A DNA stretch of 64,000 nt, from positions 186,001 to 250,000 of the forward strand of contig SAUG01000091.1 in NCBI GenBank assembly GCA_011316305.1. The letters run 5' to 3'. The stretch's first letter is position 1, and every line of letters starts with the position of its first letter. The notes under the pieces were generated by a model, which was given only the letters and a program-made list of their open reading frames with translations, searched no databases and had not been told where the DNA came from. The position numbers and the translations under genes were made by a program. Below, piece after piece: positions 4,593 to 57,799 of this stretch. Origin of the DNA: Rusavskia elegans. Lineage: Eukaryota > Ascomycota > Lecanoromycetes > Teloschistales > Teloschistaceae.

Positions 4593-6402
4593 ATGGGCAT
4601 CCCCCGCTTCGCTGGTCACCTCCAACATTATTCGGTCAACACAACCTTAGGACACAAGAGTGCTCATGACAACGACTCGGTTACCGTGGATCCACCGAAA
4701 TTCGTCATCGACGGGCCTGGCCTAGCCTACCACGTCTATTACCGCCTGGCTCACAGATCCAATGCCCTCGGTGCCTTTGATGCACTTCCTTCGTATGATC
4801 AAATCGGTCAGGCTGCCATTGCATTCTTATCCGAATTGGAAGCCCACCACGTTCAAATGTAGGGCATTCACTGCCATGTCCGACATGTAGATAGGTAACA
4901 TCCACAGTTCACACATTTATTTTGACGGCTACCTCCCTCTCCACAAACGACATGTCCGCCTCGGCAGGCTCGAATCCTGTCTCAAAGACCTCATCAAGAT
5001 TCAGACCAAGTATCCCAGAGGTCTCGGGGTCTCCGACTTACATCCTAAACCCTCACGATTGACATCTTCGCGACTTTTCAATTCATTCCACTCTGTGCCT
5101 CACTTACTCCGCGGCCTTCCTGCACCCCCACTTCTCGTCCCTGCTGTCCTCGATGCACTCAGTACAACCAAATATGCCTCTATCACCGAGGTCGTACCAG
5201 GCGAAGCAGATACCTCTTGTGCCAAAGCAGCGAGAGATCAAGGTGGGATAATCCTGACAAGCGATTCTGACTTGCTTGTCTATAACATCGGCGACAACAA
5301 TGCTGTTGTCTTTTTCAGCGGTCTCGAAATCCACGAAGAGCTTGGCGCTACAAGCGTCACATCGGTGCTCAAAGCGAACATGTATCCAACGGCGCAAATA
5401 GCAAAGAGACTCGAGTTGCCAGGCCTCCAACAGCTAGCCTATCATTGCAAGCTTGATCCGACCGTAAGCCTCGCTGAAGCGACGAGGAGGGTGCACCAGC
5501 CTATGCAAGATGAACACTTCTGGCGGCGCTTTCAGGAAGAATACTCGACCCTAGATTTCGATCAAACCTCTCAAGCCCAATCGTCAGGAATTCAACTCCG
5601 AGGCTTCTTAGATCCCCGTCTTTCGGAATTTATTCTCCAACTCTCCACCAGGGCCAGAGAAGATGAGACGAACATCTATCTCCCCTTCCTCATTGAGGAC
5701 CCTTCCAGGGCTTCAGCTTGGTATGTATCCTCCTTCATCCGTCAGATTATCTACGTTATAATCGCTGCCCAAGTATCAACTCTCCAAGCGTCTCTGCCTC
5801 TAGGAGCTATCATGGAATTCTCCCGGAGAGGTTTGCGGGTTGTGCCTTCTACTGTTCCCCTCTCAACATCTACCGCCACAACTGCACAGCGCTTAGATAG
5901 TGGCAACATCCATGCCCTATCTTCTCGACTCCAAAAGGCGAAGGAGAGGTTTCGAGTCGTATCACCAATGTTTCGATACCGTATCTTCGCCCTCAGAGAA
6001 ACATATTGCTGGCACATAGTCAATCTCAAGAATCCTCCATCCAAGAATTCCATTGCGCGTACAACAACGGGATACGTCGGCAGTCTTGTTCAGTGGGAAG
6101 ACATTCATCTTGAGGCGCAGATCCAAGCCGTGTTGTACGCACTGAGGATGGTAAAGCAGGGTCTTAGCTACATCACTATCGGCAAGGCTGTAGTAGAAGG
6201 AAGTGTCGAGCTGGAGGATATACTTGAAGATCTACCGCCACTGAGTGGGCTATTGCCTTCATTCATGGAACTAAGGGGCTTTGCGGAAAAGGAAAAGATC
6301 GAAGTTTCGCAGGTGGTCTCGTATGTCATGCATTTCGAGGAAGCTGAAGATCGATTTGAAGACGGTGGCAATGCTGGGACAGCCGAAAAGTCCGCCTCAT
6401 GA
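4593..6402 (+). CDS. XPG/Asteroid-domain nuclease-like protein (two exons)
   Basis: Exons 4593-4858 and 4908-6402 give 586 residues. The start ATG gives MGIPRF, the typical N-terminus of the FEN1/XPG superfamily; the upstream ATG at 4586 is out of frame. Acidic metal-binding positions of the 5'-nuclease fold are present: Asp40 (VIDGPGL), Asp95 (YFDGYLP), Glu188 and Asp190 (PGEADT), Asp208 and Asp210 (TSDSDLL). The distal part contains the Asteroid-type segment LPFLIEDPSRASAW followed by an IRQ..Y motif, so it resembles ASTE1-like fungal proteins rather than FEN1, EXO1 or MKT1. The family is thought to act on structured DNA, but substrate and role are unproven. The C-terminal 100 residues are acidic. 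The frame is intact with all acidic residues kept, so it is probably functional although RIP DNA begins about 200-300 bp downstream. Confidence 0.88.
4859..4907 (+). other. 49-bp spliceosomal intron
   Basis: Begins GTAGGG and ends CACAG. Exon 1 ends with two bases of a codon, completed by the first base of exon 2 (ATT, Ile89). The joined frame then reads SHIYFDGY and runs open to the stop at 6400-6402. Without splicing, exon 1 hits a stop at 4860-4862. The size is normal for filamentous ascomycetes. Confidence 0.85.
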
Positions 6403-9399: not shown

Positions 9400-10110
9400 T
9401 TACTTTATTAATTTTAAAAATTATAGATATTAAAATTTATTTAATATTCCGACTTTATAGTACTATTTTCGATTATTTTATTAAAATAGAAAAAATAGTT
9501 CGATTATCGAACTATATTAATAAAAAAATAATATTAATATAAAGTTTATAAAATACTATTTTCGTATCAAAAAAAAATAAATTAATTTATAATATTATAA
9601 ATATTTTAGATTCTATATTAAAGTTTAGTCTTTATTAAAACTAAAATAAAAAAGATAATAATAAAAAAATAGAAAACTTTTTAGAATATAAAAATAAATA
9701 TCGGAATAAATTTAAAGAATATTTTACTAAATATTATAGAGAGCCTATTAATCTATTAAAGCCTAAAATCTACTATATAGAAGAAAATAAAATAATATAA
9801 AGAAATAATATATTATAACTTTATTAATTAATCTAATATCTACTTTATCTATTTTAAATAGTATTTTTTAATAATTCTAGCGTCTTCGAATAGTTACTTC
9901 TAAAGCTAATCGATATTTTCGCGCTAATATTATCGAAGAGAATATAAATTAGATATTCTAAAAAAATAATATTTTAAACTTTCTAAAATTAATATAAATA
10001 GCACGCGATATTTTTATTTATTTAATATCTTTAATAGGAATAGAGTAGACTTTTAGTTTTACGAAGAAATTTTATTAATAGAATCGAATTTAAATAATTT
10101 TAGAGTATAT
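9400..10110 (+). pseudogene. hAT transposase remnant (C-terminal half)
   Basis: Hand translation, reading RIP stops as Gln/Trp, gives IYNIINILDSILKFSLY near 9590-9640. This matches the hAT 'YaaaxxLDPrlKfxyf..W' block. About 300 bp further comes a C-terminal region colinear with the better preserved second copy (57800-57975), which reads ..KLDILK-WYFTFLKLA.. then VEIKRTFSF, the hAT dimerisation domain. Many stops. The N-terminal part, to about 7800, is too degraded to read. Confidence 0.7.
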
Positions 10111-10599
10111 AGAATAGATAATAATAATTAAATACTATAACTATACTATAAATTTAGAAATAAAAGAAACTTTAAAAAAATTATAGAATATATATAACCG
10201 GGTAGAACTAAAGAATAGAATTCTATCTAAAAAATAGAATCTTTTTAAAAAAAAAGTTTAGAAATATTTTAGATAAATTAATCTAAATATTTTTTAATTT
10301 AGAAAATAAATATCTATTTCTAATATTTAGACTATTTCGTCTATTTAAATATTAAATTCTAAAATTTCGACTTTAATAAATAGAAAAAGATTAAAAAAAT
10401 AAAAAAATTTAAGGTTTTACTATTTTAAATAGAAGTTTTATATTTTAATAAAGTTTATTATATAGTAGATAATTTAAATATTATTAAAATTTTACTAGAA
10501 AATTTTAAATAGATTAGTAAAATAATAATTATTAATAATATTTTTTTAATAGATTTATATAGAATACTTTTATCAAACTTTAAATAAAATTTTAAAACT

Positions 10600-13100
10600 T
10601 AATTTAATTATATAGAAATAACTATTTATATTCTAAATAAAAATATTTTCTTAAAAATTAAAGTAAAGATAGCTATAAAAGAGATAATTAACTTCTAGCT
10701 AAATAAAAAATTAAAAAAATTTATAATAAAAAGATTTAAAATTAAAATATTAATTATTTAATTTCTTATTATCTATTATTAAACTTTTATTACTAAATCT
10801 ACTACGTAGATATTAGATTTATTCTATATCAAAATCTTTATCTTTTTATATATATTTTAGGATAAAAATAGAATTTCAATTAGTTTAATAATTAAAATCT
10901 ACGAATTTAAAGATTTTAAATCTATAATTTTATATTAAAATAAATTATTTAGAGAGAATTAGTTCTTTTATTAATAATATAGTAATATATCGAAGTAATA
11001 TATTTATTTAAATCTACTATTTCTAGATATAGATAACTAGTTAAAGAGTTTAATAATTTCTTTTATATTTTTTTTTATCGTCTTCGGTTTCCGTTTCTAT
11101 TTTTCTTTTTATATCTTCTTCTTTTTCTATATCTTTATCTCTATTTTTATTTTTATTTTAATTAAAATTTATACTTTTAGCTAAACTTTTATTATTTTTA
11201 AATTTAGTAATATCCTATATAGAAAAATATCTCTCTACTACCTAATTTTTTTAATTATATTTAATAATATTTTTACTCTTTTTATTCTTTTTTTATAGAA
11301 AAATTTACTTATATTTATTAGCCGTATATCTGCTATAATTAAATTCTTTAGTAAATATCGTTTATTTTTTTTAAAAAGTCTAGAATTCTAGTAAACTAAA
11401 AATTTTAAAAGCCGGTATAATAGATTATTTATTATTAGATAAAATTAACGATTAAAGCTAAATATTTTATTAAAATTACTTTATTCGAACTATTAAAATC
11501 AATATTAGACTAGAAAAAATATTAGAAATAAATATTTCTATATTAAATAGCTCTATTTATATTCGATATATTATTTTAATATATTAGTTTACTTCATTTC
11601 TATTTTATTTATTCGATAGTTATCGTCTTTTCTATATTTTTTATAAAAGCTTTAATATATAGATTATTTTTATAGTATAATACTTTATATAGATTAGTAT
11701 TTAGTATAATATATATTATATTATTATATTGTTATAGATTCTTCTCTCGATTCTATAATCTATTTTTTAATCTTGTATATTTTATTTTAATACGATCTTT
11801 ATTTCTATATCTATACTTTTCTAGAAATCTATTTCTTTAAATTTATTAAAATATTTATATACTATAATACGATCTATATTCTATTTTTTATAAAATATAT
11901 ATTCGGTATCGGACTATTTTTTACCGTATTTATAGTTTATTATAAATTTAGATTTTATAAATAGTAATTTTGATTTAGATATAGTAAATAGTATACTAAA
12001 TAATATAGTAGAATAATATAAATAGTAGCTATAGAATTATCTAAAAACTCTATATATTATAGTAGTAGAATATACTAGAAGTTTATAGAAATATATAGAT
12101 TTAATTAAAACTTTAACTTTCTAGCTATAATATAGTCGACGATTATTTAAATAACTTTATTTTACTTCTAATTTTCTATTCTTTAATAATTAACTACTAT
12201 AATAAAATACTAATATAATATATATCGTACTATATTATATTTTATTCTATTATTAGTTTTTTATTTCTTTTATTTATCGTAGCGTAATATATAGTATATA
12301 CAAATCTAAATAGAAATAATATCTTGTTTTGTTTGTTTTTTTAGTATCCGGTCAACCGTCGGTTCCGTGAGCAATTTACTTCAGTGTTGGTACGCTAGCG
12401 TTGGATACACGGTAATAGAAATAATATATTAAAATATTATAATTAATTTTTAATAATACTAGAATTATTTAGATAAAAAAATAATTCCGTTCTATAGAAA
12501 TATAGTAAAGATTTAAAGAAATAGAATTAAAAAAAGTAAAAAAAAAGATAAAAGAAAATCTTATAGTATTATAATACCGGTAATATTTTAGAATAATATA
12601 TTTTAAGTTGTTTAGCTAATAATCTATCGAAAGAAATATAAATAGAAATCTAGAACTGTCGCTTTTTAAAAAATCTATAAATATTAAAAGAGTTTTAAAC
12701 TTTTTTTTTTTAAAATACCTTTTATTAAACTATATTATAAAAATTTTACCGATATCGCTACTATAAATATATATAGGAAAATCGATAGAATATAAAATAT
12801 AGTATTAGTAACTTTATAGAATATAATAGAAGAATATATAATTACTTTTCTAATAAATAAATATATTATTCTACTATATTATTATATATATCCGACTCTA
12901 TTTTATTTTTTATAGATTATTAACTAGCTATAACTTCTACTAAATATATTACTATTTAGTAAAAAAACGCCTAGTTTATTAAAGGAATAATATAGAATCT
13001 AGAAATATAGCCGGAAATATAACGATAGCTAGTTAATAATAAATTTTAAAAAATTAAAAGTTCTAGGGAAAAAAAAAATATATCTATAAAATTATTTGGA
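10600..13100 (-). pseudogene. second, convergent ORF region inside the hAT (unknown product)
   Basis: Downstream of the transposase the element carries about 3 kb more, conserved between the two hAT copies and in the inverted copy at 29788-34472. Minus-strand translation of the copy-2 counterpart gives a Lys/Asp/Glu-rich stretch (KDKDKNKDKD) and a block FNDVNRVFLIKYIVLIVNF in one long stop-punctuated frame. I do not recognise the protein. It is transcribed towards the transposase if real. Confidence 0.35.
12323..12415 (+). mobile_element. 93-bp solo insertion of the family B head module
   Basis: Inserted in hAT copy 1 with a 12-bp TSD, TAGAAATAATAT (12311-12322 and 12416-12427). hAT copy 2 has the empty site near 60010-60035. 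The sequence starts CTTGTTTTG, includes AACCGTCGGTT and ACGCTAGCGT palindromes and GTATCC/GGATAC arms, and equals the first ~90 bp of the 0.9 kb family B element at 46848. It keeps many CA/TG, so it is not RIP-mutated, as expected for so short a unit. Confidence 0.8.
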
Positions 13101-13395
13101 AAAAGATAATATTATTTATATAGTATTAATATATAATCTAGTAATAAATAGAATATAATACCGTTTATATTATCTATAATTATTTTTATATTTAACTATT
13201 TAATATAATTATAAATCGGATTAAATTAGATTTCTATTAGATTCTATTTTATAATTCGATCCGATTCTCGGTTCTAATACTAGAATTCGATTTAACCTAT
13301 TTAGCGGGTCGAACCGGTTCGACCCGCTAAAATTCAGGTCGGATATCCGACGGTTCGACGGAAATCCGACCCGAAGTAGCCAGACTAAATACTAT

Positions 13396-13429
13396 TTTTT
13401 TTAAAATATTTCTATTTGAAATTATATTG

Positions 13430-13465
<36 letters not shown>

Positions 13466-15262
13466 CAACGCTATATACGGTAACGATTGTTATATTTACG
13501 TATAAAGAAATTTTTATAGTTAAAAATATATTCGTTAGACAAAATTTATAGCGTAGTTAATTATTTTAATTTAACTATTTCCTTTTTTATTCGCGATTAC
13601 GAATCATCTACTATTTAATCCTTTTTCGATATTATATATAATTATAAATATCTAATACTTCTACTATATCTATCTGCTTTACTGCGAAGTAATTATCTAT
13701 AGTCGTTATCTCGGTCGTATTTATTATATAATCCGTATTTAAATATTCCGTTAAACTATTAAAATACTTTTTAATCTATTTAATTTTAAAAAGGTTACTA
13801 GATAGTACACTAGCTACTATAGCTAAAAGTTTTACCCGGTCGATTAGATTAAAAAAAAGATAGAAAGATCGAATAATATATTATAAAGACGATAAAAAGA
13901 AAATTAAAATTAAAATCGAAATAGATTATTCTAGCTATAACGAGATAGTCGACGACTATATAAAATAATATAGTTATTATAGATATAGATACTACCGTCT
14001 GATTTAGTTTATAACTATAGCTATTACGGGAATATATACGTACGTAAAAGCTTTTAGGTTTATATTACTAGTAAAAACCTTCCTGAAAGACTTTTATCTG
14101 AAATTATATTGAGTTTTCATATATATATATATATGTTTCATTAACGTTATATACGGCAACGATTGTTGTATTTACGTATAAAGAAATTTTTACAGCTAAA
14201 GTTCGTTAGGCAGTCAATTACTTCTATTTAACTATTTCCTTTTTTATTCGTGATTACGAATCCTCTATTATCTAATCCTTTTTCGATATTATATATAATT
14301 ATCAACTTCTAATATTTCCGCTACATCTATCTACTATAATACGAAGTAATTATCTACGTTTATTATTTCGACTATATTTATTATATAACCTATATCTAAA
14401 CGTTTCGCTAAACTATTAAAGTATTTTTTAATCTATTTAACTTTAAAAAAGTTACTAGATAGTACGCTAGCTATAACGGCTAGAAGCTTTACCCGGTCGA
14501 TTAAATTAAAAGGAGATAGAAAAGTCGGATAATATATTTTAAAGGCGGTAAAGAAAACATTTTTATTGAAATTAAAATAGGTTATTCTAGCTATAATAAA
14601 ATAGTCGACGACCGTACGAATATATTTAATTATTATAGATATAAATACTACCGTTTGATTTAGTTTATAGCTAAAGCTATAACGGGAGTATATACGTATA
14701 TAAAGATTTTTAGATATTATTAAACTTATATTACTGGTAAAAGAAAAAAAAGAAAAAACGATAACTGCGAGATATATTTATTTATAAAAATTTCTACGTT
14801 AGTTAAATTATTGGAAGAAAGATTTATTATATTACTAAGCAAATTTAAATTAAAACTTTATAGAACTATTATTTATATTTACTAAATTAATATATAAATT
14901 TCACTATCGTATATTTAAAACTGATATATTAACGTTTAATTTGTTTACCGAACCACTGCTTTACCGGATATCAAAATCAAAACAAATTAATTAAATTACT
15001 AGTAAAAGAAAAAGAAAAAAAAGAAGCGATAATTGCGAAATATATTTATCTATAAAAATTTCTATATTAAATTATCGATGGAAGGATACGTTATATTACT
15101 ATGTAAATTTTAATTAAAAATCTATAGAAAGAAGCGTTATTTACGTTAACTAAACTAGAATATTAATTCTACTACTGTATATTTAATATTGATATACTAA
15201 CGTTTGATTTACTTATCGAATTACTAGTTTACCGGATACTAAAACCAAAACAAATTAACTAA
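13396..15262 (-). mobile_element. family A retroposon-like element, outer copy, split by an inner copy
   Basis: Same family as 25580-26489, on the minus strand. The 3' part is 13396-14076 and the 5' part 15008-15262, interrupted by another copy. Its own TSD is ATAATAAATAC/TTA, at 7378-7390 (now left of the hAT) and 15263-15275, 13 bp with one C/T difference. So the hAT at 7392 inserted exactly at this element's edge after it was in place. Confidence 0.75.
14077..14994 (-). mobile_element. family A retroposon-like element, complete inner copy
   Basis: 918 bp, inserted in the outer copy with a 13-bp TSD ATTACTAGTAAAA (14064-14076 and 14995-15007). It has the conserved head (reverse complement of TGTTTTGGTTTTG..GGTTCGG), the short ORF region, a conserved 3' segment (GCTGTAAAAATT..), an (AT)n run and the terminal ~60 bp. 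No terminal inverted repeats. Confidence 0.8.
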
Positions 15263-15275
15263 ATAATAAATATTA

Positions 15276-21537: not shown

Positions 21538-21946
21538 TGTAACGTCCCTGTATATCAGAGAGCGTTACGTTCGAGTCTAGCTATAGCCGTGGACGTAGTC
21601 CGAGCTACTAAATAGTAAAGGAGTTCTAACGTAGATTATCGTAACTAATTTTATATAGCCGCAGAGGTATAGTTATAATATTACGAGATATCTTCGTTAT
21701 AAAATAATTAAGAAGAGAATAGTAGAGATATATTTAATAATTATATTAATAACTAACGAGAGAAACTATCTATAGAAGTAATAAGCGATATATATAGTAA
21801 GAGTAGCCGTAAAGGCCGATAGATAGCCGTCTACTAAAAGTCCTTTTAGGAAGAGCGGCTATAGCGGCTATAGGCGGCTATAGATAATTAGGCTCGTTTA
21901 TTTAACTAATTTTCTAGAAAACCTCTATAGAGTCGTAGATATAATA
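21538..21946 (-). repeat. 3' LTR of the Gypsy element 21538-25506
   Basis: 409 bp. It contains the GC-rich core GGCTATAGCGGCTATAGGCGG shared by all four LTRs of this family here. It starts TGTAACG and is less RIP-mutated at its outer end. Confidence 0.88.
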
Positions 21947-24900
21947 CGGCCCTCTCTATATTATTTTCCTTAAACTTTTTAATACTTTTTAGGCGTATTT
22001 AAAGTACTTTCTAGGTTCCTAAGTATTTTCTTTATTAGGGAACCCTTTCTATTTTACTAGGAATTCGTTAGTTTCTTTCCTTTTATCTAAAATTTTCTTA
22101 ATTTTATATTCTTCTCGTTTTTTATAATACTAATATTTTACTAATAGAATACGGTCTAGCGCTTTTTTTAGTAGTCTAATATAAAATTTAGAAAAAATTC
22201 CTATTATTAGGAGTTTTAGATATACTATTATTTCCCGAATATTTTAAATTTTAAATACTTCTATATATAGTTTATTAAATTTCTTATCTATTTAAATTTA
22301 ATATTATAAGTAAAATCCTATCCCTTTTATTAATTTTATAGTATTTTCTTATTTTATCTAGTCTCTATTTAACTTTTTCCTTCGCTATTTAAATCCTTGT
22401 TTTTACTTTATCCTAATTATTTTTTATTCTATTAATAAAAGATTATATCGCTAGGTTTTTTATATCCGAGTATATTTCTTTTCGAATACTTTTACTATAA
22501 AACAGTTCGTTAGGTATTATTCGAATATCTTTATTATATAATAAATTAATTACTATTTAGGCTGTCGGAAGAAATTAAATCTAATCTTCCTTTTTATCTA
22601 AATAATAAATCTTTAGGTAGATTTCTAATATCTGATTTATTCTTTCCGTTTATCTATTAATTTATAGGTAGAACGATATTAATATTATCTATTCCGTACC
22701 TACTACCTATATTAAGCCTTTTATAAAATTTAAGATAAATAATTTATTTCTATCTAAAATAATCTTTTCCGAAATTCTATTTTTATAGAATACTATTCGT
22801 AGTAGTAGGAAGGCTAACTATTCTACTATTATAGTTATTTTATATAATACGAATTATATATACTTTATAAATCCGTTAATAATTATTACTATTATATTAT
22901 ATAAAATTTATATATATAGGTCGATTGATTCTAGTAATCCTATAATAAAATCCAATATAATCTATTAGTAAGGTATATCTAGCGTTTATATCGGCTAATA
23001 TTTTCCTACCGGTTCCTAGTAGCTTTTCTTTACTATTACGTAATTTGGATAGTTACGGATAAATTCTTCTATATATTTTTTAAGTACTAGTATATTAGTT
23101 TTTTTTTAAATTTTTCTTAGTATTTTAGTAATATTCTAGTATCTAGCTATCCTTAGATTTTATATTTATTTAATTATATTATTTATTTCTTCCGAAACTT
23201 TTATTCTTTTAAAAATATTTCCGACTTTTTTTAGTAAAGGCCTAGATATCTTTTCGGCAGCTTCGTAGTCTGCTCTTCGGCTTAAAATATCTATAACTAT
23301 ATTATCGGTACCTTTAATATACCTAATTTCGAAATTATAGTAGGTTATTTCTTTTATTTATTTTATTTATTATTAATTTAGTTTTTTATCTACTAATAGT
23401 AATAGTAGGTTTTTATAGTCTATATATACTACTACTTTATAATTAGTTCTGTTTATATAAATTTTCTAGTATATAAGATTTACTATAATTACTAGTATTT
23501 CTTTATCTATTATTATATAATTAACTTCTACTAGAGTTAATTTCTTTAAATAATATCTAAATAGTTTTCCTTTCTAGGAAATATATAACTCTATTACCCG
23601 GTCCGAAGTATTTATATAAAAGATAATTTATTCTTCTAGATCGAAAATTACTAAGATTTCTTCTAATATAAAACTCTATTTAAGTTTTTTAAATATTTCG
23701 TTTTAGGTACGTATCTACTAGAAAGGTATATTATTTTAGAATAAATCGGTAAACGGAATAGTTTTTTTTATATAGTTTTCTATTATATTCTAATAGAACC
23801 CTATAAATTTTAAAAAACTTTAAATATTTTTTTTATTTTTTAGTACTAGATATTCCCGTATCGCCTATAATTTATTCGCTTCTATAGTAATATTTCCTAG
23901 TTTTATTATATATCCGAGGAACGTAACTTTTTATTTATAGAATTTTAATTTTTCTTTTTTAATTCTAAGGTTATATTTTCTAAACTTTTATAATATTTAG
24001 TAAATATACTACGTATATTCTTCTTTTATTTCTAAAAAGATTAGTACGTTATCTATATAAACTATAATAAAGATATCGAGATAGTCGTATAATACCTTAT
24101 TAACTATATATTATAGAATCGCCGGTATATTTATTAACCTAAAAAATATAACTAAGTATTCGAAGAATCTATATTTAGTTTTAAATATAGTTTTTTATTT
24201 ATTTCTATATTTAATCTATAGTAAATTAAATATGTTCTATAGATTAAGTTTTATAAAAAATTTAGCTTTTCCGATTCTGCTTTTTAAATCTACTAGAAGT
24301 AGGAGTAGGTATTGATTTTTTTATATTACTATATTAAGTTTTCTAAAATCGATATAAAATCGAAAATTACTATTTTTCTTTGGAATAAATATAACTAGTT
24401 ATTCTATCTTTAATTTAGAGTACCGTATATATCCTCTTTTAAAATTATAATCGATATATTATTTTAATACTTTCGATTATTTATTATTTAATCTATAGAT
24501 TAGCCTAGCTTTTAGCTTTTCTAGCTCTATTATAATAATTTTATAGTCTTCCTAGATATAAGCCGGTAAAGGTAACCTTCCTTCTAGTTCCTTTAATACG
24601 TCCTAGAATTTTTTAAAAAATTATAGAATTTTATCTATAGTAGCTAATTCTCCTTTAATCTACTATTTCCGAATAAAGATATTATATATCTTCTATATCT
24701 CGGCTATCCTTTTAGATATATTAAAAAGATAGTTTCCTATTTTTACCCGTATCGTTTTCTAAATAATCTCTAGATTCTATAATATAAGCTATAGGATATC
24801 TAGATAGATATCCTTTTATATTTTTATAATATCGAAAATAATCTTTTCTTTATACCTATTATTTTATATCTATAGGGGTTTAGTCTAATACTTAACTCTA

Positions 24901-25097
24901 ATATACTCTATTTTATTAATAGTTCCTATAAAGTAAGGTTCCGTTTTCCTAATTAAAGGGACGCTAAATCTTCTCGCGTATTCTTCTAATATAATATTCT
25001 AAGTAGTTTCTAAATCGACTAAAGCTTCTATAGATTATCTAAGTAACGTTAGTTAGATAAAAATCTGATTTTTATCTATCTTCCGGAATCGTTAAAG

Positions 25098-25506
25098 TAT
25101 AATATTCCTATATATTAGAGGGTATTACGTTCGAGCCTAGCTATAGCTATAGATATAGTCCGAGCTACTAAATAGTAAAGGAATCCTAGTATAGGTTATT
25201 ATAACTAATCCTATATAGCCGCAGAGGTACGGTTATAATATTACGAGGTATTTTTATTACGAGGTAATTAAAAAGAGAATAGTAGAGATATATTTAATAA
25301 TTATATTAACGACTAACGAGAGAAACTATCTATAGGAATAATAAGCGATATATATAGTAAAAGTAGCCGTAAGGGCCGATAGGTAGCTATCTACTAAAAG
25401 TCCTTTTAGAAAGGACGGCTATAGCGGCTATAGGCGGCTATAGATAATTAGGCTCGCTTGTCTGACTAATCTTCCAGGGAACCTCTGTGGAATCGTAGAC
25501 GTAACA
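25098..25506 (-). repeat. 5' LTR of the Gypsy element 21538-25506
   Basis: 409 bp partner of the LTR at 21538, ending CGTAACA followed by TSD ATACT. The right ~70 bp retains CA/TG (GTCTGACTAATCTTCCAGGG), so RIP was uneven along this LTR. Confidence 0.88.
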
Positions 25507-25579
25507 ATACTATAATAGAATCTATACTACGGTTTTATACTATATTCAATTTCCGAATATTACTTATTTTAAATAGAAT

Positions 25580-26489
25580 TTAGTTAATTTGTTTTGGTTT
25601 TGGTATCCGGTGAACCAGTGGTTCGGTAAACAAATCAAGCGTTGGTATATCAATATTAAATATACGATAGCAGAATTTATACTCTAGTTTAGTTAATATA
25701 AATAACGGTTCTTTCTATAGAATTTTAATTTAAATCTATTTAGTAATATAACGTATCCTTCTATCGATAATTTAACTAACGTAGAAATTTTTATAGATAA
25801 ATATACCTCGTAGTTATCGCTTTTTCTTTTTCTTCTTTTACCAGTAATATAAGCTATACCCTTGTAAATACTACGATTAACTAAAACCTTTTACGTATAT
25901 ATATACTCCCGTAACAGCTATACTATAGCTAAACCAGACGATAGTATCTATATTTATAATAACTCTATCTATTTTCGAAGACGTCGACTATCTCGTTATA
26001 GCTAGAGTAACCTATTTTAACTTCGATAAAAATCTCCTCTTTACCACCTTTAAAATACGCTATCCGACCTCTTTACCGCCCTTTAATCTAATCGACCGGA
26101 TAAAGCTTCTAGCTATAGTAGCTAGCGTACTAGCTAGCGATTCTATAGCTAGCGACCGTCTTAAAGCTATACGGGCTAAAGAGTATTTTAATAACTTAAC
26201 GGAACGTTTAAATACGGGTTATATAATAAATATAGACGAAACGATAACTATTCGTAATTACTTCGCAGTATAGTAGGTAGATATAGCGGAAATATTAGAA
26301 GCTGATAATTATATATAACGTCGAGGAAGGACGCTGTAAATCTTGCCTGACGAATGTACCTTTGGCTGTGAAAATTTCTTTACACGTAAAATACAACAAT
26401 CGTTGCCGTATATAACGTTGATGAAACATATATATATATATATATATGAAAATTCAATATAATTCCAGATAGAAGCTTTCCAAAGGAGG
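25580..26489 (+). mobile_element. family A retroposon-like element, best preserved copy
   Basis: 910 bp with a 13-bp TSD TTTTAAATAGAAT (25567-25579 and 26490-26502). The head is TTTTGGTATCCGGTGAACC then AGTGGTTCGG, with a GAACC-AGT-GGTTC hairpin. A conserved ORF lies at about 25936-26318. The 3' segment is GCTGTAAATCTTGCC..CAATCGTTGCCGTATATAACG, then (AT)n, then ~60 bp ending CTTTCCAAAGGAGG. No inverted terminal repeats and a long TSD point to retroposition rather than cut-and-paste. No known family recognised. Confidence 0.82.
25936..26318 (+). pseudogene. conserved short ORF of family A (unknown protein)
   Basis: One frame reads SIFEDVDYLVIARVTYFNF, RYPTSLPPFNLIDRIKLLA, KEYFNNLTERLNTGY and VDIAEILEADNY and then a stop at 26316-26318, with two internal TAG codons where Gln is expected (RIP). 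The same protein is readable in the inner copy at 14077-14994, at 29097-29402 and at 37000-37370. A diverged but alignable C-terminal half is in family B (47225-47604: EYLDKLAGRLDSGTT .. QQ..LEAILVAYN). About 110-120 residues, mostly helical with alternating charges. Function unknown. Confidence 0.6.
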
Positions 26490-26502
26490 TTTTAAATAGA
26501 AT

Positions 26503-27174
26503 AAAAAGATCCGCGGAAGTTTTATCGACCGTATTTTCCTTTTTTTTATTTTTAAAAAAATTTTAATATTTTAATATAGTTTTTATATATATAGAATCGT
26601 TTCGGAATTTAGTTATATTTTTCTAAAGTTTCTAATAATAGCTTGAATTATTATTCTATTATTTAATTATTTATCGGGCTATCTAGACGATCGTAGTAGC
26701 CGGAAAAATAATTTTATTTAAATATCTATTTTATTATCTGCTTCGATTCCAGAAAATCTAAAATTAATATAGTTTTATTAAGTAAAAATTAATAACTTCC
26801 GTATATTCTAGTACTAGTTAGCAGCGTATTCTATATCGGTTTTATCTATAAATTTAACGAGCTAGTATTCGAAAAGAATAATAGTATTATTAAGAAATAG
26901 AAATAGCTCGTCGGTCGATATTTTAACTAAAATCTAATTAATAAATCGCTTTATTTCTATCGTATTTAAATATATAAGATATAATTAGTAAAAAATAGTA
27001 GTTTTTTAGAAAATATTGCTAATAAAATATATATAATTAAAATAATTAATATTTCCGAGATTATAGATAACGCTACTAATATTATTAATATTAATAAATA
27101 GAAATAAATTTTTATAAACGTTATATAAATATTATATAATATCTATAAATTAAAATTTTATTACTATTCATTTC
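26503..27174 (+). pseudogene. hAT transposase C-terminal remnant
   Basis: Around 26815-26945 a frame reads AAYSISVLSINLTS, then YSKRIIVLLRNRNSSSVDIL. This corresponds to the hAT dimerisation domain 'LAxDILSIPxxSxxxERxFS..RRNRLSxxxIexL'. Different sequence from the 6-kb hAT, so a second hAT lineage. Heavily stopped. The upstream part is interrupted by family A and the Gypsy at 21538. Confidence 0.55.
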
Positions 27175-27387: not shown

Positions 27388-28412
27388 TAAACTAGCTATT
27401 TCGATATAAATTTCCGTCGGTATTTCGGAAATCCGATCCGAATTTTAATAAATCGGTTCGATCCGACCCGTTAGATAGTTTAAATCGGTTTCTAATATTA
27501 GAATCGAAAATCGAATCGGATTGGACTGGTCGTCGGATCGGATTTCGAATCCGGGTTAAAAAAAGCCGATCCGATTCGAATCGGTTCCGATTTTTCTCGG
27601 TATCGAACCGATAGATTTTCAGTTTCTAGTTTATAATCCGATCTAATTTAAATGATTCGCTAAATATATATAATTTATATAATTATAGTATAATCCTAGT
27701 ATAAAATTTATATAAAAAATTTATAAAATTCTAATTAATTATTCAAGCTAGCTAGAAGATTTCTAGTAAATTTAAATATATTACCTAATTATATTACATT
27801 TATATATAATTTATTAATTGATCAATTGTAATATTATACTATTAATAAAGTTTTAGTAAATTTCTATTAAATTTTCGGATTCGATCTAGAACCGATTATT
27901 TAGCGAATCGAATACTCGAACCGATTAAATTCGCTAAAAAAAATCGGATCGGATTATAGATATCGACGGGAATTTATATCGAAATAGCCAGTTTAAATCG
28001 GATTATATAATAGAAATTAATAGAAATTCGATTCGATTTAATTTATAATTGTATTAAATAGCCGAATACTATAACTTTTATAAATAAATATTATTTTAAA
28101 TTTACTTTTCATTTAATTATAATAAATAATTTAGTTAATAAAAAACGGTAATATATTTTATTTAATACTCTCTAATATAATAGCTATAATCTATATTATT
28201 TTTTTCTAATAAAATTTTAGATTATATATTTTTTTTCCCGAACTTTTTAATTATATAAAATTCGATTATTAATTAATTTATTATTTTTCAACTATATTTC
28301 TAAATTCCTTATTGGATTTTTAAATATTTAAAATCTTTAATTTAAATAATAATTGATTAGACGTAAATTACAACTAGATTAATATTTAAATAATATAATT
28401 ATAATCGTATAT
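27388..28412 (-). mobile_element. hAT derivative, minus strand, right-end portion
   Basis: Starts TAAACTAGCTATTTCG, a RIP version of the hAT right end TAGACTGGCTACTTCGG. It continues colinear with the reverse complement of hAT positions 13387 back to roughly 12800 (for example CCCGAACTTTTTAATT). It is interrupted by a MITE (27522-27994) and stops at the family A insertion at 28413. The other end was not found. Confidence 0.55.
27522..27994 (+). mobile_element. hAT-derived MITE, 473 bp
   Basis: Left end TGGACTGGTCGTCGGATCGG, right end ATAGCCAGTTTA, with a perfect 8-bp TSD AATCGGAT (27514-27521 and 27995-28002). Both ends match the two ends of the 6-kb hAT, so this is an internally deleted derivative mobilised by it. 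It sits inside a larger hAT derivative. Confidence 0.85.
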
Positions 28413-29769
28413 TTAATTAATTTGTTTTGGTTTTGATATCCGATAAACTAGTAGTTCGATAAATATATCAAATTTTAGTATACTAGTATCGAATATACGG
28501 AATAGAATTTATATTCTAGTTTAATTAATATAAATAACAATTTTTTAAAATTTAATTCAAATTTATTTAATAATATAATATATTCTTCCATTGATAATTT
28601 AATATAAAAGTTTTTATAGATTAATATATTTCGTAATTATCGCTTTTTTTTCTTTTATCAATAATATAAACTTTATATAAATATTACGATGGTTTGAATG
28701 ACGCAGTGGTAACGCTGCGTGACCTGGAGGTCCAACGGATCCACGCTCTATTTCGGAATTAGCGGAATTAATCCAGCGAATCGGAGGTTCGAATCCCTCG
28801 AAAACTAATTAATATTTGAGTTTTTTCTATCGACCCTAGTCGATTTTATACAGAGTTTTTATACAGAGAACTTATATAGTAGATCGTCTCGGCCTAGCCC
28901 GATCGATCGAAGTAAATAAGTTAATTAAAATTAACTAAATTACGGTTTCCCTCTGGGTTTTAGTTTAGATCTAGCTTTTTCGGAAGTCCTAAATTCGAAT
29001 TTTCAGTAAAATATTTAAATATTAAATAATTACGTAATTTGATCGAATTAGCGCCTCTAGCGTTAGATTCGTGAAAGACTAAAATCAAAAACCCGAATGA
29101 TTAATCGTATATATAGATATTACGATTTACTAAAACCATTTATATATATATATTTTCGTAAAATCTATATTATAGCTAAATTAGATGATAGTATCTTTCT
29201 ATCTATATCTGTAATAACTATATTAATTTTCGATAACGTCGATCATTTTATTATAGCTAGAGTAATCTATTTTAATTTAGATAAAAATCTTTTTTTCACC
29301 GCTTTTAAAACGCGCTATCCGACCTTCCTACTTTTTTTCAATCTAATCGACCGGGTAAAACTTCTAGCCGTAGTAGCTAGCGACCTTTTTAAAAATATAT
29401 AGATTTAAAAAATACGTTGATAATTTAGTAAAATAGATATATATAAATTATATAGTAAATATAACCGAGAATATAATTATTTATAAATATTTAATATTAT
29501 AGTACGTAGATACAGCGGAAATATTAGATATTTATTATTATTTATAATATTGAAAAAGGACTGGATAGTAGAAGATTCGTAATCGACGAAGAAAAAAAAT
29601 AGTTAATATAATTAATTACGCTGTAAATTTTATCTAACGAACTACTTTATATTTTTAGCTGTAAAAATCTCTTTTTACGTAAAATACAAAAATCGTTATC
29701 GTATATAACATTATTAAAATATATATATATAATTTTAATATAATATTAAATATAAATTTTTTAAAAAAG
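28413..29769 (+). mobile_element. family A retroposon-like element, copy with SINE inserted
   Basis: 12-bp TSD ATAATCGTATAT (28401-28412 and 29770-29781). Without the SINE at 28691-29116 and its 10-bp TSD it is 921 bp, the family length. The ORF remnant is open at 29097-29402 (it starts in the SINE tail) and contains IARVIYFNLDKN and FNLIDRVKLLAVVAS. Confidence 0.82.
28691..29116 (+). mobile_element. tRNA-derived SINE, copy 1
   Basis: 426 bp with 10-bp TSD ATATTACGAT (28681-28690, 29117-29126). The tRNA-like head has an A-box-like GACGCAGTGG and a B-box GGTTCGAATCC. A tRNA-unrelated body follows (CGGCCTAGCCCGATCGATCG) and a 3' tail GTGAAAGACTAAAATCAAAA ending in TA repeats. SINEs are transcribed by Pol III and moved by a partner LINE. 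No partner LINE was found in the window. Confidence 0.88.
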
Positions 29770-36666: not shown

Positions 36667-37923
36667 TTATTTAGTTAATTTGTTTTGGTTTTGATACCCG
36701 GTAAACCAGCGGTTCGGTAAATAAATCAAGCGTTAGTATACCAATATAAAATATACGATAACGGAATTAAAATTCTAATTTAGTTTATATAAATAACGGT
36801 TCTTTCTATCGAAAATTTAATAACTTCAAATTTTTATAGATAAATATACCTTGTAGATATCGTTTTTATTTTCTTTTACTAGTAATATAAGTTTATTAAT
36901 ATTTCTTAAAAATATTATAATTTACTGAAACCTTTTACGTACGTATATATTTCCGTAACAATAATATTATAGCTAAACTAAGTTATAGTATCTTTCTAAT
37001 AACTATATCTATCTATATAGACGTCGACTATCTCGTTATAACTAGAGTAATCTATTTTAACTTCGATAAAAATCTTCTTTTTACTACTTTTAAAACGCGC
37101 TATTCGACTTTTCTATCTTCTTTTAATCTAATAAATCGGATAAAGTTTTTAGCTATAGTAGCTAGCGTATTAGCTAGCGATCCTATAGCTAGCGACCGTT
37201 TTAAAACTACGCGGGTAAAAGAGTATCTTAATAGTTTAACGGAACGTTTAAATATAGATTATATAATAAATATAGTCGAGACGACGACTATTTATAATTA
37301 TTTCGTATTATAGTCGATAGATATAACAGAAATATTGGATATTTATAATCGTTTATAACGTCGAAGAAAGACGCTGTAAATCTTGCCACGTGAATGTAAT
37401 AATCGTTGCCGTATATAATATTAATGAAATATATATATATATAAATACAATACGGCCTGGTGGCGCAGTGGTAACGTTGCGTAACCTGAAGGTCTAACGG
37501 ATCCGCGCTCTATCTCGGAGTTAGCGAAGATAATCCAGCGGGTCGGGGGTTCGAATCCCTCGAAGGCTAACCTAATACTTAAGTTTTTTCTATCGATTAA
37601 ATCGATTTTTATAGAGTTTAAAATATAGAAAGACTAGATAGTAGATCGTCTCGGCCTAGCCCGATCGATCGAACTTAATTAAATTAATTAATAAAGTTAA
37701 ATAGATTACGGTTTCCCTCTAGATTTTAGTCTAGATCTAGCTTCTTCGGGAGTCTTTAATTCGAGTTCTCGGTAAAATACTTGAGTATTAAATAATTACG
37801 TAATCTGATCGGTTTAGCGCCTCTAGCGTTAGAATCGTGAAAGACTAAAATCAAAATCCGAATGATTAATCGTATATATATAATAAATACAATATAATCT
37901 CAAATAAAAACTTTTCAAAAAAG
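36667..37923 (+). mobile_element. family A retroposon-like element, copy with SINE inserted
   Basis: Head TTTTGGTTTTGATACCCGG at ~36681, ORF region ~37000-37370, 3' segment GCTGTAAATCTTGCC, then (AT)n. An imperfect TSD AAAGTTTTARTAT flanks it (near 36654 and 37924), the mismatch being A/G as expected from RIP. The SINE at 37453-37882 lies in its (AT)n tract. Confidence 0.75.
37453..37882 (+). mobile_element. tRNA-derived SINE, copy 2 (clearest tRNA head)
   Basis: 430 bp with 12-bp TSD ATAAATACAATA (37441-37452, 37883-37894). A-box TGGCGCAGTGG at 37461-37471, B-box GGTTCGAATCC at 37548-37558. The acceptor-like GGCCT pairs with AGGCT at the end of the head. The A-to-B spacing is much longer than in an intronless tRNA, suggesting descent from an intron-containing tRNA. 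The 3' tail is the same as in the copy at 28691. Confidence 0.9.
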
Positions 37924-44361: not shown

Positions 44362-44422
44362 GCCGTTTAATATAAAATACCTAGACTATAGAATATATTT
44401 CAAGCGATAGAGTTTATTTTAT

Positions 44423-44853
44423 ATTTATATACGTTTTAATTATTCGGATTTTTAATTATCTTTTACGAATTAATATTAGTAGTACCAATCGATCAAATTA
44501 TATAATTATTTATATTCAAATATTTACCGCGAATTTAATTAAAAATTTCTAAAGAAACTAGACCAAGACTAAAATCTAGAAGAAAACCGAAATCTATTTA
44601 ACTTTAATTAATTTATTTTACTTCGATTAGAAATAGCTAGACCGAGATAATCTTCTAAATAATCTCTCTATATAACTTTTATATAAACTCTATATAAAAA
44701 TCGACCTAGTCTATTAGAAAAAATTTAAATATTAGATTAGTTTTCGAAGGATTTAAACTTCCGACCCGCTGGATTAACTCCGCTAACTCCGAGATAGAGC
44801 GCGGATCCGTTAGGCCTTCAGGTAACGCAGTCTACTACTACGCCACCCAGGCC
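44423..44853 (-). mobile_element. tRNA-derived SINE, copy 3 (minus strand)
   Basis: 431 bp with a 16-bp TSD ATAGAGTTTATTTTAT (44407-44422, 44854-44869). The head reads GGCCTGGGTGGCGTAGTAG on the minus strand. The B-box is RIP-mutated (TTTAAATCC). The body diverges from copies 1-2, and with copy 4 forms a second subfamily. Confidence 0.87.
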
Positions 44854-44869
44854 ATAGAGTTTATTTTAT

Positions 44870-45117
44870 TATTATATCTTTTATTAGAAATAGTTATCGC
44901 TAGTTTATCATTACCGTATCGGCGGCTCGTTATATCTATAGATAATTTCGATATATAAAATATCTCGCGTCTTTTTATTAATAGTAAAAGGTTAACTCTA
45001 TTATTTTTAAAAGTTTTAGATTCTATTAAAGGATTTCTAGACCTTTTAGTTATACGCTCGCGTAAAACGTAATTAATTTAAACTTTCTATATAAAAAGTT
45101 CTTTTTTTTAAAGCGTT
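44870..45117. repeat. unresolved RIP-degraded DNA between SINEs
   Basis: AT-rich interval between two minus-strand SINEs. No recognisable feature. Confidence 0.4.
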
Positions 45118-45126
45118 TCTATATAT

Positions 45127-45560
45127 ATATATATATACGATTTAATCAATCCGATTTTTAATTATCTTTTACGAATTAGTACTAGAGGTACTATTCGATT
45201 CGATTACGTAATTATTTAGATTTAAATATTTACCGCGAATTTAATCTAAAATTCTTTAAAAAGCTAAATCTAGATTAAAATCTTGAGAGAAATCGTAGTC
45301 TATTTAACTTTAATTAATTTAGTTTATTTCGATTAGAAATAGCTAGATCGAAATAGTTCTATAAATAATTTTTCTATATAATTCCTATATAAACTCTATA
45401 TAAAAATCGACTTTATCGATTAAAAAAAATTTAAATATTAGATTAGCCTTCAAGGGATTCGAACTTTCGACCCGCTAGATTAACTCCGCTAACTCCGAGA
45501 TAGAGCGCGGATCCGTTAGACCTCCAGGTAACGTAGTCTACTACTGCGTCACCCAGGCCA
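45127..45560 (-). mobile_element. tRNA-derived SINE, copy 4 (minus strand)
   Basis: About 434 bp. TSD TCTATATAT (45118-45126, 45561-45569), partly ambiguous because the target is a TA run. The head keeps GGCCTGGGTGACGCAGTAG and a B-box GGTTCGAA-type element (minus strand GTTCGAATCCC). Same subfamily as copy 3. Confidence 0.83.
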
Positions 45561-45619
45561 TCTATATATTAATAACTTGAAATATTCGACTTTTTTCGAA
45601 GGAAATACTATTATAGTAC

Positions 45620-46260
45620 TTTTTGAAAAACTTTTATTTAAAGTTTTATTGATTCTTTATAAATATATATATGGTTTATTTATATTATATACGGTAACAG
45701 CTATTATATTTACGTATGAAAAAATCTTTATAGCTAAGAATATATAGTTTGTTAGATAAAGTTTATAACGTAATTAATTACTTTTATTTAACTATTTTCT
45801 TTTCTATTCGCGATTACAATTTCTTTATAATATTTAAATATTGTATTTCAGATTCATTTTTGACGTTATAAATATTTATAAATATCTAGTGTTTCCGCTA
45901 TAGCTATTTACTATACTATAAATTTAATTATCTATAATTATCGCTTCGGCTATATTTACTATATAATCAATATCTAACTATTATATTAAACTATTAAAGT
46001 ATTTTTTTGCCCGCGTAAAATACTATAGATAGAAGCTTTACTCGGTTAATTAGAGTAAAAAGGTATAAAAAGATCGGATAACGCGTTTTAAAAGCGCTAA
46101 TAAAAGAATTTTTATTTATAAATAATATAGATTTATTTAGCTGTAATAAAATAGTCGAGGTCCGCGTGGATAGATAGATATAGTTATTATAGATATAAAT
46201 ACTATCGTTTTGTTCAGCTAGTAGCTATAGCTATTACGGGAATATATATATAAATAAAAG
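45620..46260 (-). mobile_element. family A element, 5'-truncated copy
   Basis: Contains the 3' end, (AT)n tract, GTAACAGCTATTATATTTACG block and ORF region in reverse orientation, but lacks the ~250-bp head. It stops near GGGAATATATATAT at ~46250. 5' truncation is what target-primed reverse transcription produces. Confidence 0.65.
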
Positions 46261-46844
46261 GTTATAAAATCTAGATTCTATTTAAAGAACTGCGTAGTAG
46301 ATAGATACGAGAAATATATCTATTAGATAGTAGAACAATATAATAGAAAGGACAATCTCTTTTATATAGAGTTTTTACTCTATTAGAATCTCTAGTTACT
46401 AGCGCGTTTAGTACCCGAAAGATTTAGTAGCCGTTTCGTAATATAATAAATCCTTCCGGCTTTATAGTTATATTTTTCTATACTAGAATTCGTTTCGAAT
46501 CTTTATATTATATCTGCAGTTTAAATTTATATAATACAAATCAGATATAATATAGAAACGAATTATTTATCTTCGTATTTCTATAGTTAAATCGGTTTTT
46601 ATAATATCTTTTATATATAGATTGTTAATAACCATAAGATTTCATATAAATATCTTAGAGATTATCCAATATATTTCGATATACTATCAATGGTTTATTA
46701 ATAGTAATAGCAAATTAATTAGTTATCAAATTTATATTATAGACAATAGTGGATTATTTAGTTATATAAAATAATATAACATCTATAGTTATATTATACT
46801 ACTAGTAATAATCCATTAATCGTAATTAAGTATTCTATTTAATT
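46261..46844. repeat. AT-rich DNA with a low-RIP patch, possible solo LTR
   Basis: 46290-46560 has LTR-like words (GATACGAGAAATATATCT, CTTTTATATAGAG). 46620-46830 retains many CA/TG dinucleotides (ACTATCAATGG), unlike its surroundings. No gene. Identity unresolved. Confidence 0.35.
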
Positions 46845-46847
46845 GAT

Positions 46848-47768
46848 TCTTGTTTTGTTTATTTTTTGATATCCGGTTAACCGTCGGTTCCGTAAGCAAT
46901 TTATTTTAGTATTAATACGCTAGCGTTAGATATATAGTATAAAAACTAGTACCCTAGTCTAATTAACTTAAACTAAAAAACTATATAAAATTAACTCGAA
47001 TCTATTCTATAATACGCTCGTAATATAAACTCCTATAGTTTACTTAAAATAGAACGTAATAGAATTTTCGTAATATATATATCTTATAGTCGCTTCTTTT
47101 TCTTCTTTTACTAGTATCTACTATTATATCTAATATATATATCTTCCGTAATAGTCCAAGCTATAGGCTAATATATACAGAACCTCTACTAATAATATTA
47201 TAACTACGATTATACCTTTCTAATTAAAAGAAATAGAATATAAAATCGCTAAATTCGAACTATTTAATAACGTCGACCGAGTCCTCGCTAGTCCGCCTAC
47301 TATAACGGACTTTAAATCCCGAGATCCGTTAGTCTTAACTATAATATTAAAGCCTCGTATTCCGAATCCGCCGGAGCCGTACGGTCTTAGCGACTATATT
47401 AAACTTCTAGTAAAGGCCTTTATTCTACTAGAATCCGAGCTAGTAGTTATCGAGTATCTAGATAAATTAGCAGGCCGTCTAGATTCGGGTACGACCGTAG
47501 ACGAGGATAAATTAACGAGGATAAAAGATAGTATTACCGCCTAGTAGATAGTCCTAGAAGCTATATTAGTAGCTTATAATTGTACGTATTTCGAAGTAGT
47601 ATAAGGGAATTATAGAGGAGGAATAGTAATTAAATAGAGGATATAATAGAATAAAAACGATTAATTGCGCTGTAAACCTTGCTTTTTTTAACTGCGAAAA
47701 TTCTTTACTATATAAGCAATATTTATTATTACCGTATAAAAACTACGGTAATAAAACGTATATATATA
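46848..47768 (+). mobile_element. family B retroposon-like element
   Basis: About 0.92 kb. The head TTGTTTTG..GATATCCGGTTAACCG matches the 93-bp solo insertion at 12323. It has an ORF at 47225-47604, a 3' segment GCGCTGTAAACCTTGC and a terminal hairpin ATTACCGTA-loop-TACGGTAAT (~47738-47761), then AAAACG and TA repeats. Same architecture as family A but strongly diverged and with less RIP. The TSD is not clear. Confidence 0.7.
47225..47604 (+). pseudogene. conserved short ORF of family B (unknown protein)
   Basis: Frame through 47269 reads FNNVDRVLASPPTITDFKSR, then PNPPEPYGLSDYIKLLVKAF, EYLDKLAGRLDSGTT and VLEAILVAYNCTYFEVV. Only two adjacent TAGs (probably Gln-Gln before RIP) break it before a TAA at ~47602. 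The second half aligns with the family A ORF. Likely helical or coiled-coil. No family recognised. Confidence 0.6.
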
Positions 47769-47904
47769 ATGACTCAATTATAACCCCGGACAGGGGTCCC
47801 ACAAGGGGATTTAATTGATTATTATTATTATTTGATGGAATATCTTATTCAATGGTTTTTTGATATTATTTTATAACTATATATAATAATTTAGAGCGTA
47901 GACA
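47769..47904. other. low-RIP spacer
   Basis: Contains CCCCGGACAGGGGTCCCACA and TTATTATTATTATT. CA/TG are present. No gene or clear element end seen. Confidence 0.4.
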
Positions 47905-48602: not shown

Positions 48603-48768
48603 TTTAGAGGAAAAATAGTAATTAAATAGAGGATATAATAGAATAAAAACGATTAACTACGCTGTAAATCTTATTTAACTTTTAACTGCGAAAATTCTTT
48701 ACTATATAAATAATAATTATTATTGCCGTATAAAAATTACGGTGATAAAACGAGGGGAATTATACCGT
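48603..48768 (+). mobile_element. family B 3'-end fragment (5'-truncated)
   Basis: About 165 bp equal to the last part of 46848-47768, with the same hairpin in the form ATTGCCGTA-loop-TACGGTGAT (G-T pairs) followed by AAAACG. Only the 3' end is present, as in a 5'-truncated retroposon. Confidence 0.7.
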
Positions 48769-57100: not shown

Positions 57101-57196
57101 TTTCTAAATAAGGAAAATATATAGAAACCGAGAAAATATCTTAAAAGAGTTTAGGAAACTCTAAAGAGGTTTAGAAAAACGATATAGAAAGGGCCG

Positions 57197-57551: not shown

Positions 57552-57799
57552 TTTTAACGATTCCGGAAGATAGATAAAAATCGGATTTTTATATAACTAA
57601 TATTATATAGATAACCTATAAAGGCTTTAGTTTATTTAAAAGCTATTTAGAATATTATATCGGAAGAATATATAAAAAGATTTAATATCTATTTAACTAG
57701 AAAAACGGAACCTTATTTTATAAGAACTATTAATAAAATAGAATTCGTTAGAATTAAATATTAGATTAAACCCCTTACTAATACTACCGAAAAGAATCT

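Follow-up and report, generated by a model that had tools for sequence, protein, structure and literature searches.

In many ascomycetes, RIP keeps repeats from spreading, which raises the question of how a family of repeats can nevertheless grow to hundreds of copies. In the window analysed here, a stretch of 64,000 nucleotides from Rusavskia elegans (C212:186001-250000), two related families of 0.9-kb elements, A and B, are present. The genome, comprising 44.16 Mb in 217 contigs, was searched with these copies, and the system of parent and offspring which emerged bears on this question. Very probably, the family is a non-autonomous, SINE-like retroposon that derives from the alternatively spliced RNA of a locus on contig C209, or of an allele of it, and this locus directly follows a LINE-type gene, itself present once, on the 3' side.

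Copies in the window and their mode of insertion

By sequence comparison within the window, family A matches were found at every location named in a first-pass annotation. The copy at 25580-26489, whose sense strand is the minus strand, is a spliced retrocopy according to its splice-aware alignment to the parent locus and is flanked by a perfect TSD of 13 bp (TTTTAAATAGAAT), which adjoins its sense 3' end at 25567-25579 and its sense 5' end at 26490-26502. On the plus strand, a full-length copy at 14059-15007 (69.7% identical to the parent, 26.9% C>T/G>A) is nested in an outer copy, which is thereby split into a sense 5' part (13393-14057) and a sense 3' part (14991-15275). Two copies on the minus strand, at 28411-29769 and 36667-37923, carry an insertion of the same 0.42-kb repeat at 28699-29115 and 37461-37880, respectively. 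This repeat, which is possibly another short element, also occurs at 44420-44886 and 45125-45574, with 75-85% identity among its copies. The copy at 45620-46266 (plus strand), annotated initially as 5'-truncated, actually lacks its sense 3' end and is therefore not a typical truncated insertion. For family B, the copy at 46849-47809 and the fragment at 48605-48752, both on the minus strand, are present as claimed; the former is flanked by an 11-bp TSD found by reading (TTTAATTGATT, at 46838-46848 and 47810-47820), and the latter stems from near the sense 5' end.

Searched with the window copy at 25580-26489, the genome yielded 998 first-look candidates for family A, while separate searches with the two ends of this copy gave 615 and 658, and a search for family B gave 288; in each case 40 were scored. 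Since the searches scored only 40 or 150 among several hundred candidates, these numbers are not copy counts, and the hundreds of family A copies which they suggest are an estimate.

Of 68 loci, 66 were taken (L055 is a duplicate of L044, and L043 has no 3'-end match), and 65 remained for the splice count after removal of the parent locus L061; in L062 the longer of two copies was used. A further locus set comprised 35 of 38 fetched loci, leaving out L018, L024 and L028. A TSD was found in 47 of the 65 copies, versus 13 of 650 when flanks were paired between different copies as a control. The duplications measure 12-15 bp in 43 of the 47 cases, and the duplicated target site starts with ATA in 28 of them. 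The 18 copies without a TSD above the threshold include several in which a shifted repeat is visible by eye. The TSDs, initially given as 12-13 bp, are mostly 12-15 bp long, with 11 bp in the family B copy. Terminal inverted repeats were not evident in the copies read.

Furthermore, both ends of the full-length element are fixed. The copies share a single 3' end, AACTAA, and nothing lies between it and the TSD in 33 of the 47 TSD-bearing copies. A-runs at the sense 3' end (22 A in L022, 14 A in L025, and in L029 by eye) are restricted to a minority of copies, so that the poly(A) tail of processed pseudogenes is not a general feature here. At the other end, the sense start falls on the first C of CCCCCCTGGGGGG in 25 of the 65 copies and within 20 nt of the start in 41, and the TSDs adjoin this fixed start base. 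Copies that are 5'-truncated retain the sense 3' end and are common among the loci picked by the 3'-end search; for the loci L055-L084, which came from that search, truncation counts and low RIP are biased. TSDs together with 3'-anchored, 5'-truncated copies are what is expected of target-primed reverse transcription (TPRT). RNA hairpins at the termini were also considered as a signal and rejected, as they were no better than in shuffled sequences at either end (z of -0.04, -0.31 and 0.78).

Here, the sense strand is the one opposite to the ORF of the first-pass annotation, because the A-runs, the 3'-anchored truncations and the missing GT-AG introns all lie on the complementary strand. No Rfam match at E<=1 was found within 25400-26700, and thus no Pol III-derived SINE head (tRNA, 5S or 7SL) was seen there. 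The copies do not encode an endonuclease and a reverse transcriptase either, since the 3.3 kb of DNA coding for these enzymes matches C209 only. Taken together, the initial description was partly confirmed as an observation and partly supported as an interpretation: correct are the retroposon type, the insertion by reverse transcription with TSDs and, judged by the copies, the non-autonomous character of an element that differs from a classical SINE, whereas the conserved ORF is not borne out.

Further features of the window were noted as well. An inverted pair of ~4-kb elements is located at 21545-25504 and 53739-57775. They carry terminal direct repeats of ~0.4-0.6 kb (21545-21947/25107-25499 and 53739-54372/57196-57772) as well as RVT_1 matches with stops (23904-24386, minus strand, and 54868-55332, plus strand), and due to these two features they are probably RIPed LTR-type elements. 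A duplicated block of ~3.4 kb is present at 9924-13291 and 57778-61141, with 82-86% identity and a very AT-rich composition in both copies. The GC-rich end of the window contains a 1060-aa frame at 928-4110, which resembles an acid trehalase, and a 447-aa frame at 5059-6402, which resembles an XPG/asteroid-type protein, both recognised by eye.

The parent locus, its splice isoforms and their coding potential

A single place was found at which the sequence of the copies is interrupted by eleven GT-AG introns that are missing from the copies. This parent locus (G000:C209:915816-917566, minus strand; L061) was spotted via the 3'-end search, as its last 190 bp are up to 99.5% identical to short copies; beyond these 190 bp lies GC-rich sequence interrupted by canonical introns. 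When the 1.7 kb of the parent were compared with the genome (40 of 627 candidates scored), matches elsewhere stopped at the exon borders, and among the same scored candidates the intron sequence matched C209 only, with the exception of alternative-exon pieces. The exons measure 100, 23, 23, 61, 17, 235, 92, 34, 30, 72, 75 and 196 nt, and in ten of the eleven introns a CTRA motif is present 15-22 nt 5' of the acceptor.

Splice-aware alignment over ten regions revealed intron loss in 44/44, 45/45, 45/45, 45/45, 48/48, 48/48, 49/49, 48/49, 52/52 and 53/53 of the spanning copies, which is the loss of parental introns at GT-AG sites known from processed pseudogene families. The splice aligner favours GT-AG gaps, and a wrong-strand control still obtains eight introns, although with a score of 150 versus 1184. 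Therefore, the intron counts alone mean little and the argument rests on shared exact sites. When only 28-nt junctions were counted whose mismatches, if any, are of RIP type, exact junctions were found in 36, 10 and 7 copies for introns 1, 2 and 3, and in 44, 11, 11 and 11 copies for introns 6, 7, 8 and 11. For intron 9, 41 copies are distributed over four site pairs (16, 8, 7 and 10), and for intron 10, 44 copies over six (1, 6, 8, 15, 5 and 9). Since introns are gone at shared GT-AG sites and the junctions are exact, the full-length family A copies, judged by their sequence, are retroposed splice isoforms.

The isoforms are varied. By alignment, 41 different isoform strings were obtained for 41 full-length copies, some assignments being uncertain due to heavy mutation; in four regions, 20 copies with a single best junction match (at most two mismatches) still show 16 combinations. 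In the window copy at 25580-26489, parent position 276 is spliced directly to 651, so that two exons are skipped. Over this alignment, which scores 1184 against 150 on the wrong strand, it is 77.2% identical to the parent, with 20.5% C>T/G>A and 2.3% other differences. A chance deletion as the origin of the gap at base 766 of this copy was rejected in favour of the exon skipping seen in the splice-aware alignment.

The copies fall into two groups with respect to the sequenced parent. L022 differs from it by RIP-type changes only, with no non-RIP change in 991 nt, and nine copies including L022 carry 0-8 non-RIP changes per about 1 kb. In contrast, 36 of the 45 long copies belong together by 18 positions at which at least 60% of the members differ from C209 by a non-RIP type of change, so that the majority of copies do not descend directly from the parent sequenced here. 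Due to these 18 positions, a second parental allele, not found in this genome, must have given rise to the 36-copy group; two of the positions may reflect a G to A change in the parent itself.

For the elements in the window, the first-pass annotation had postulated a conserved ORF of ~110 residues under selection. The region of this ORF (EYFNNLTERLNTG...), at 25866-26333 on the plus strand, is antisense to the retroposed RNA and contains three TAG and two TAA. Even in the spliced antisense of the parent, the plus frame runs for 126 codons without a stop, and it is partly alignable between A and B, as would be expected of a self-contained, protein-coding 0.9-kb retroposon that moves with its own conserved protein. 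Nevertheless, such a retroposon is highly improbable, since the frame is broken by introns in the parent and becomes contiguous only once the sense-strand introns are removed, as in the spliced copies. Stops were found in all 150 scored hits, out of 1095 candidates. Moreover, changes common to three or more copies comprise 29 nonsynonymous versus 7 synonymous non-RIP changes, spread over the codon phases as 12/15/9, which indicates an unconstrained sequence. The frame aligns between A and B by tblastx, as stated in the initial claim, but other frames and the flanks can be aligned as well. The Pfam search returned no family above the cut-off and two sub-threshold chance matches; a protein-database search gave no relative, and a search of a plasmid collection, an ill-suited choice, no match. 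The plus-strand ORF was rejected as a gene based on the substitution counts, the absence of a match in these databases and the purine/pyrimidine diversity, which within the element is highest in the ORF region.

On the sense strand, an ORF of 249 aa runs across all exons of one isoform, and the longest over 300 sampled isoforms comprises 262 aa, a length equalled in 1 of 150 shuffles. A first-ATG sense ORF of at least 100 aa is kept in only 9 of 44 observed isoforms. The differences between the copy groups within the sense ORF amount to 14 nonsynonymous, 3 synonymous and 1 stop, and its search for protein relatives found none. As far as can be judged from these frames, the family A RNA is probably non-coding.

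Family B resembles family A. The DNA of A and B is ~59% identical over nearly the whole length, and family B copies are bordered by repeats and have ends of the type seen in A. Six family B copies (L099-L104), picked because the genome matches were split, carry a cassette where family A uses alternative exons. Based on these sequence features, the most plausible reading of family B is an older branch whose parent was organised in the same way.

The adjoining enzyme gene, the origin of the RNA and RIP

Directly upstream of the parent, on the same strand, lies a LINE-type gene for an endonuclease and a reverse transcriptase (EN-RT). Its open frame of 847 aa contains Exo_endo_phos_2 (PF14529, 2.5e-16) followed by RVT_1 (PF00078, 2.7e-30), which is the order of an APE endonuclease and a reverse transcriptase found in LINEs. 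Past introns read by eye, frames of 282 and 104 aa follow, the latter with a CCHC-like motif. Eight relatives (P0001-P0008) match at 35-97%; P0003 (1194 aa) covers all three frames, with 56% in the comparison that gave the eight relatives and 54% and 61% for the 282- and 104-aa frames. Among solved structures, the reverse transcriptase resembles R2 and LINE-1 proteins. Judged by these frames, the gene is apparently intact. Among 150 scored RVT_1 hits (of 422), only C209 and one other are free of stops; the other, at C16:10110, proved on checking to be the telomerase (TERT).

The protein and the 3.3 kb of gene DNA gave one match each, from one first-look candidate, and no second copy or relic of the gene was found in these two genome searches. 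The 3' flank on C209 shares no exact repeat of 9-16 nt with the initial 7.0 kb of the joined upstream stretch. Thus, neither genomic copies of its own nor a flanking TSD were seen for this LINE-type gene. Had the consensus of the family extended into a known LINE, the initial interpretation was to be given up; this holds by half, since no scored copy extends in this way but the parent abuts the EN-RT gene.

The start of the mobile RNA is located ~143 bp 3' of the last EN-RT frame, and an intron read by eye would connect the last EN-RT codons to a point 32 nt 5' of this start. Just 5' of the start base, TATATTATTT and a CT-rich stretch are present. The last exon is 99.5% identical to C209 in L067, i.e., the copies have a 3' end in common with a LINE-type locus, as SINEs do. 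These features would fit a separate RNA of ~0.96 kb that Pol II makes from an internal promoter just 3' of the reverse transcriptase gene, with TATATTATTT and the CT-rich stretch as candidate promoter signals. The EN-RT protein of C209 would recognise the shared 3' end and insert the RNA by target-primed reverse transcription.

The copies might instead be ordinary processed pseudogenes, i.e., copies of an unrelated non-coding host gene made by another, extinct LINE, with the EN-RT gene as a bystander. The link from the C209 protein to the copies is an inference, family B has no known parent, and relics of other reverse transcriptases are present in the genome, all of which would fit such an origin. 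It is unlikely nonetheless, since the mobile region immediately follows the EN-RT gene in the same orientation, with the eye-read intron reaching to 32 nt before its start, and its reverse transcriptase is the only stop-free one besides the telomerase among the 150 scored hits. Furthermore, start and 3' end are each the same throughout the full-length copies, which is not the case for random host mRNAs.

Another origin to be weighed is that full-length LINE copies once spread as well, so that the C209 gene would be the last survivor and the others would have been lost or RIPed past recognition. RIP does destroy long repeats efficiently in this genome, and the 36-copy group requires another parental allele. 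Even so, no relic of the 3.3 kb of EN-RT DNA or of the protein was found, while RIPed relics of other reverse transcriptases and of the family A 3' part were found in numbers. In addition, the alternative splice sites that vary are shared by both copy groups, and the introns therefore predate both groups. A formerly spreading full-length LINE is thus improbable.

The preferred reading, a family derived from the spliced RNA of C209, leads to the question of how the parent persists. It shows no visible RIP, whereas the long copies are heavily RIPed. Relative to the parent, 73% of CpA are changed, against 15-17% for C in other contexts and 1.2% for changes in the opposite direction. The median C>T/G>A of aligned bases is 2.2% for copies below 250 bp (n=13), 1.5% for 250-350 bp (n=3), 6.8% for 350-600 bp (n=2) and 18.2% above 600 bp (n=47). 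As the search that yielded the short copies selects for 3' ends with few changes, only a comparison within that set is fair. Here, the median of changed C/G in the last exon is 5.5% in 16 copies below 350 bp (range 0-21%) and 20.7% in nine copies above 600 bp (range 8.5-25.6%; L062 left out), with a Mann-Whitney P of 0.002. In 37 long copies of the full-length search the value is 37.5%. Exceptions occur on both sides. Four of the 16 copies below 350 bp (L072, L078, L079 and L081) show 7-10% C>T/G>A, with up to 21% of last-exon C/G changed in L081, while two of the 47 copies above 600 bp show only 4-5% (L060 and L056) and L076 (538 bp) shows 1.9%. Short copies are thus spared from RIP mostly, not wholly.

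All exons of the parent, with a maximum of 235 bp, are shorter than the copy lengths that suffer most RIP. The intron density also differs, with eleven introns in the amplified 0.96 kb versus three, read by eye, in the ~3.7 kb of the enzyme gene. Based on this contrast and the short exons, it is proposed that the parent escapes RIP because its introns leave no long duplicate shared with the offspring. As the mobile part is split into exons of at most 235 bp, parent and offspring would have no long duplicate in common, and the parent would survive where an ordinary LINE would be mutated. The result would be a split LINE with an intron-shielded master, in which the enzyme is stationary, only the 3' RNA is mobile and eleven introns (exons of 17-235 bp) prevent a match of RIP length. 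Variable splicing may further cut the matches among the offspring. This shield is put forward tentatively, and its odds are lowered by the fact that the short copies are not all free of RIP-type change.

Related systems and further observations

Processed pseudogenes and retrogenes are recognised by intron loss and TSDs, with the parent gene elsewhere. Family A resembles them in its intron loss, its TSDs and its separate parent locus, and differs in its probably hundreds of copies, its fixed 5' and 3' ends, the mostly missing poly(A) and the reverse transcriptase gene beside the parent. LINE/SINE pairs share their 3' end (PMC3747384). Family A is similar to such pairs in that non-autonomous copies with TSDs share their 3' end with a LINE-type locus. 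In contrast to them, no Pol III head is found by Rfam, splicing has acted on the RNA, the LINE is present once and copies of the enzyme part were not found. To our knowledge, the domesticated reverse transcriptase genes termed rvt contain no endonuclease. Like the C209 reverse transcriptase, they encode a single-copy, stationary reverse transcriptase in a fungus (PMC10680173), whereas C209 combines an APE endonuclease with a LINE-type reverse transcriptase and is associated with mobile copies.

As for the retroposition of spliced LINE RNA, the human L1 SpIREs come nearest; these copies are made from the spliced RNA of a mobile LINE and are termed dead-ends (PMC5860796). Both are copies of spliced RNA, but in family A every full-length copy examined is spliced and the enzyme part was not seen to be copied. 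Closest in kind, as far as the description in that source goes, is Eg-R1 of Blumeria graminis, a high-copy, non-LTR, SINE-like and non-autonomous element with a Pol II-type transcript, no genomic poly(A) stretch and a short ORF (PMC6022598). By this description, both are high-copy, non-autonomous, SINE-like elements of ascomycetes; the word "intron" is absent from the main text of that article, and the description considered here mentions no intron-bearing parent next to a reverse transcriptase gene. Blumeria hordei is reported to be without RIP (PMC10648671). Within the open-access literature searched, neither an intron-bearing parent of a fungal retroposon family nor introns as a shield against RIP were found to be reported.

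If the shield exists, introns would act as armour against a homology-based genome defence. A parent without visible RIP is available here for base-by-base comparison with its RIPed offspring, so that length limits, context and evasion of RIP become directly measurable. Furthermore, C209 would be a LINE in which the enzyme has apparently become separated from the mobile RNA, and its copies preserve variation in splicing in the form of DNA. The same arrangement might also account for other Pol II-type fungal retroposons that lack a known partner, for example Eg-R1.

Some observations concern the surroundings of the parent and the shortest copies. Contig C209 itself also carries RIPed family A pieces, recognised by their frames, a few kb 5' of the parent gene (L098, sense 794-1127 and 2014-2233 of the joined stretch). 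About 100 nt past the parent 3' end in L061, inside the contig, lies a short telomere-like repeat, CCCTAACCCTAACC. Ten copies of 185-193 bp (L057, L058, L059, L065, L067, L070, L072, L078, L079 and L083) have a recurrent 5' end at parent 1558-1563, just 3' of the last splice junction (1555). Random truncation does not account for this recurrence, and several of the ten copies carry TSDs exactly at this 5' end.
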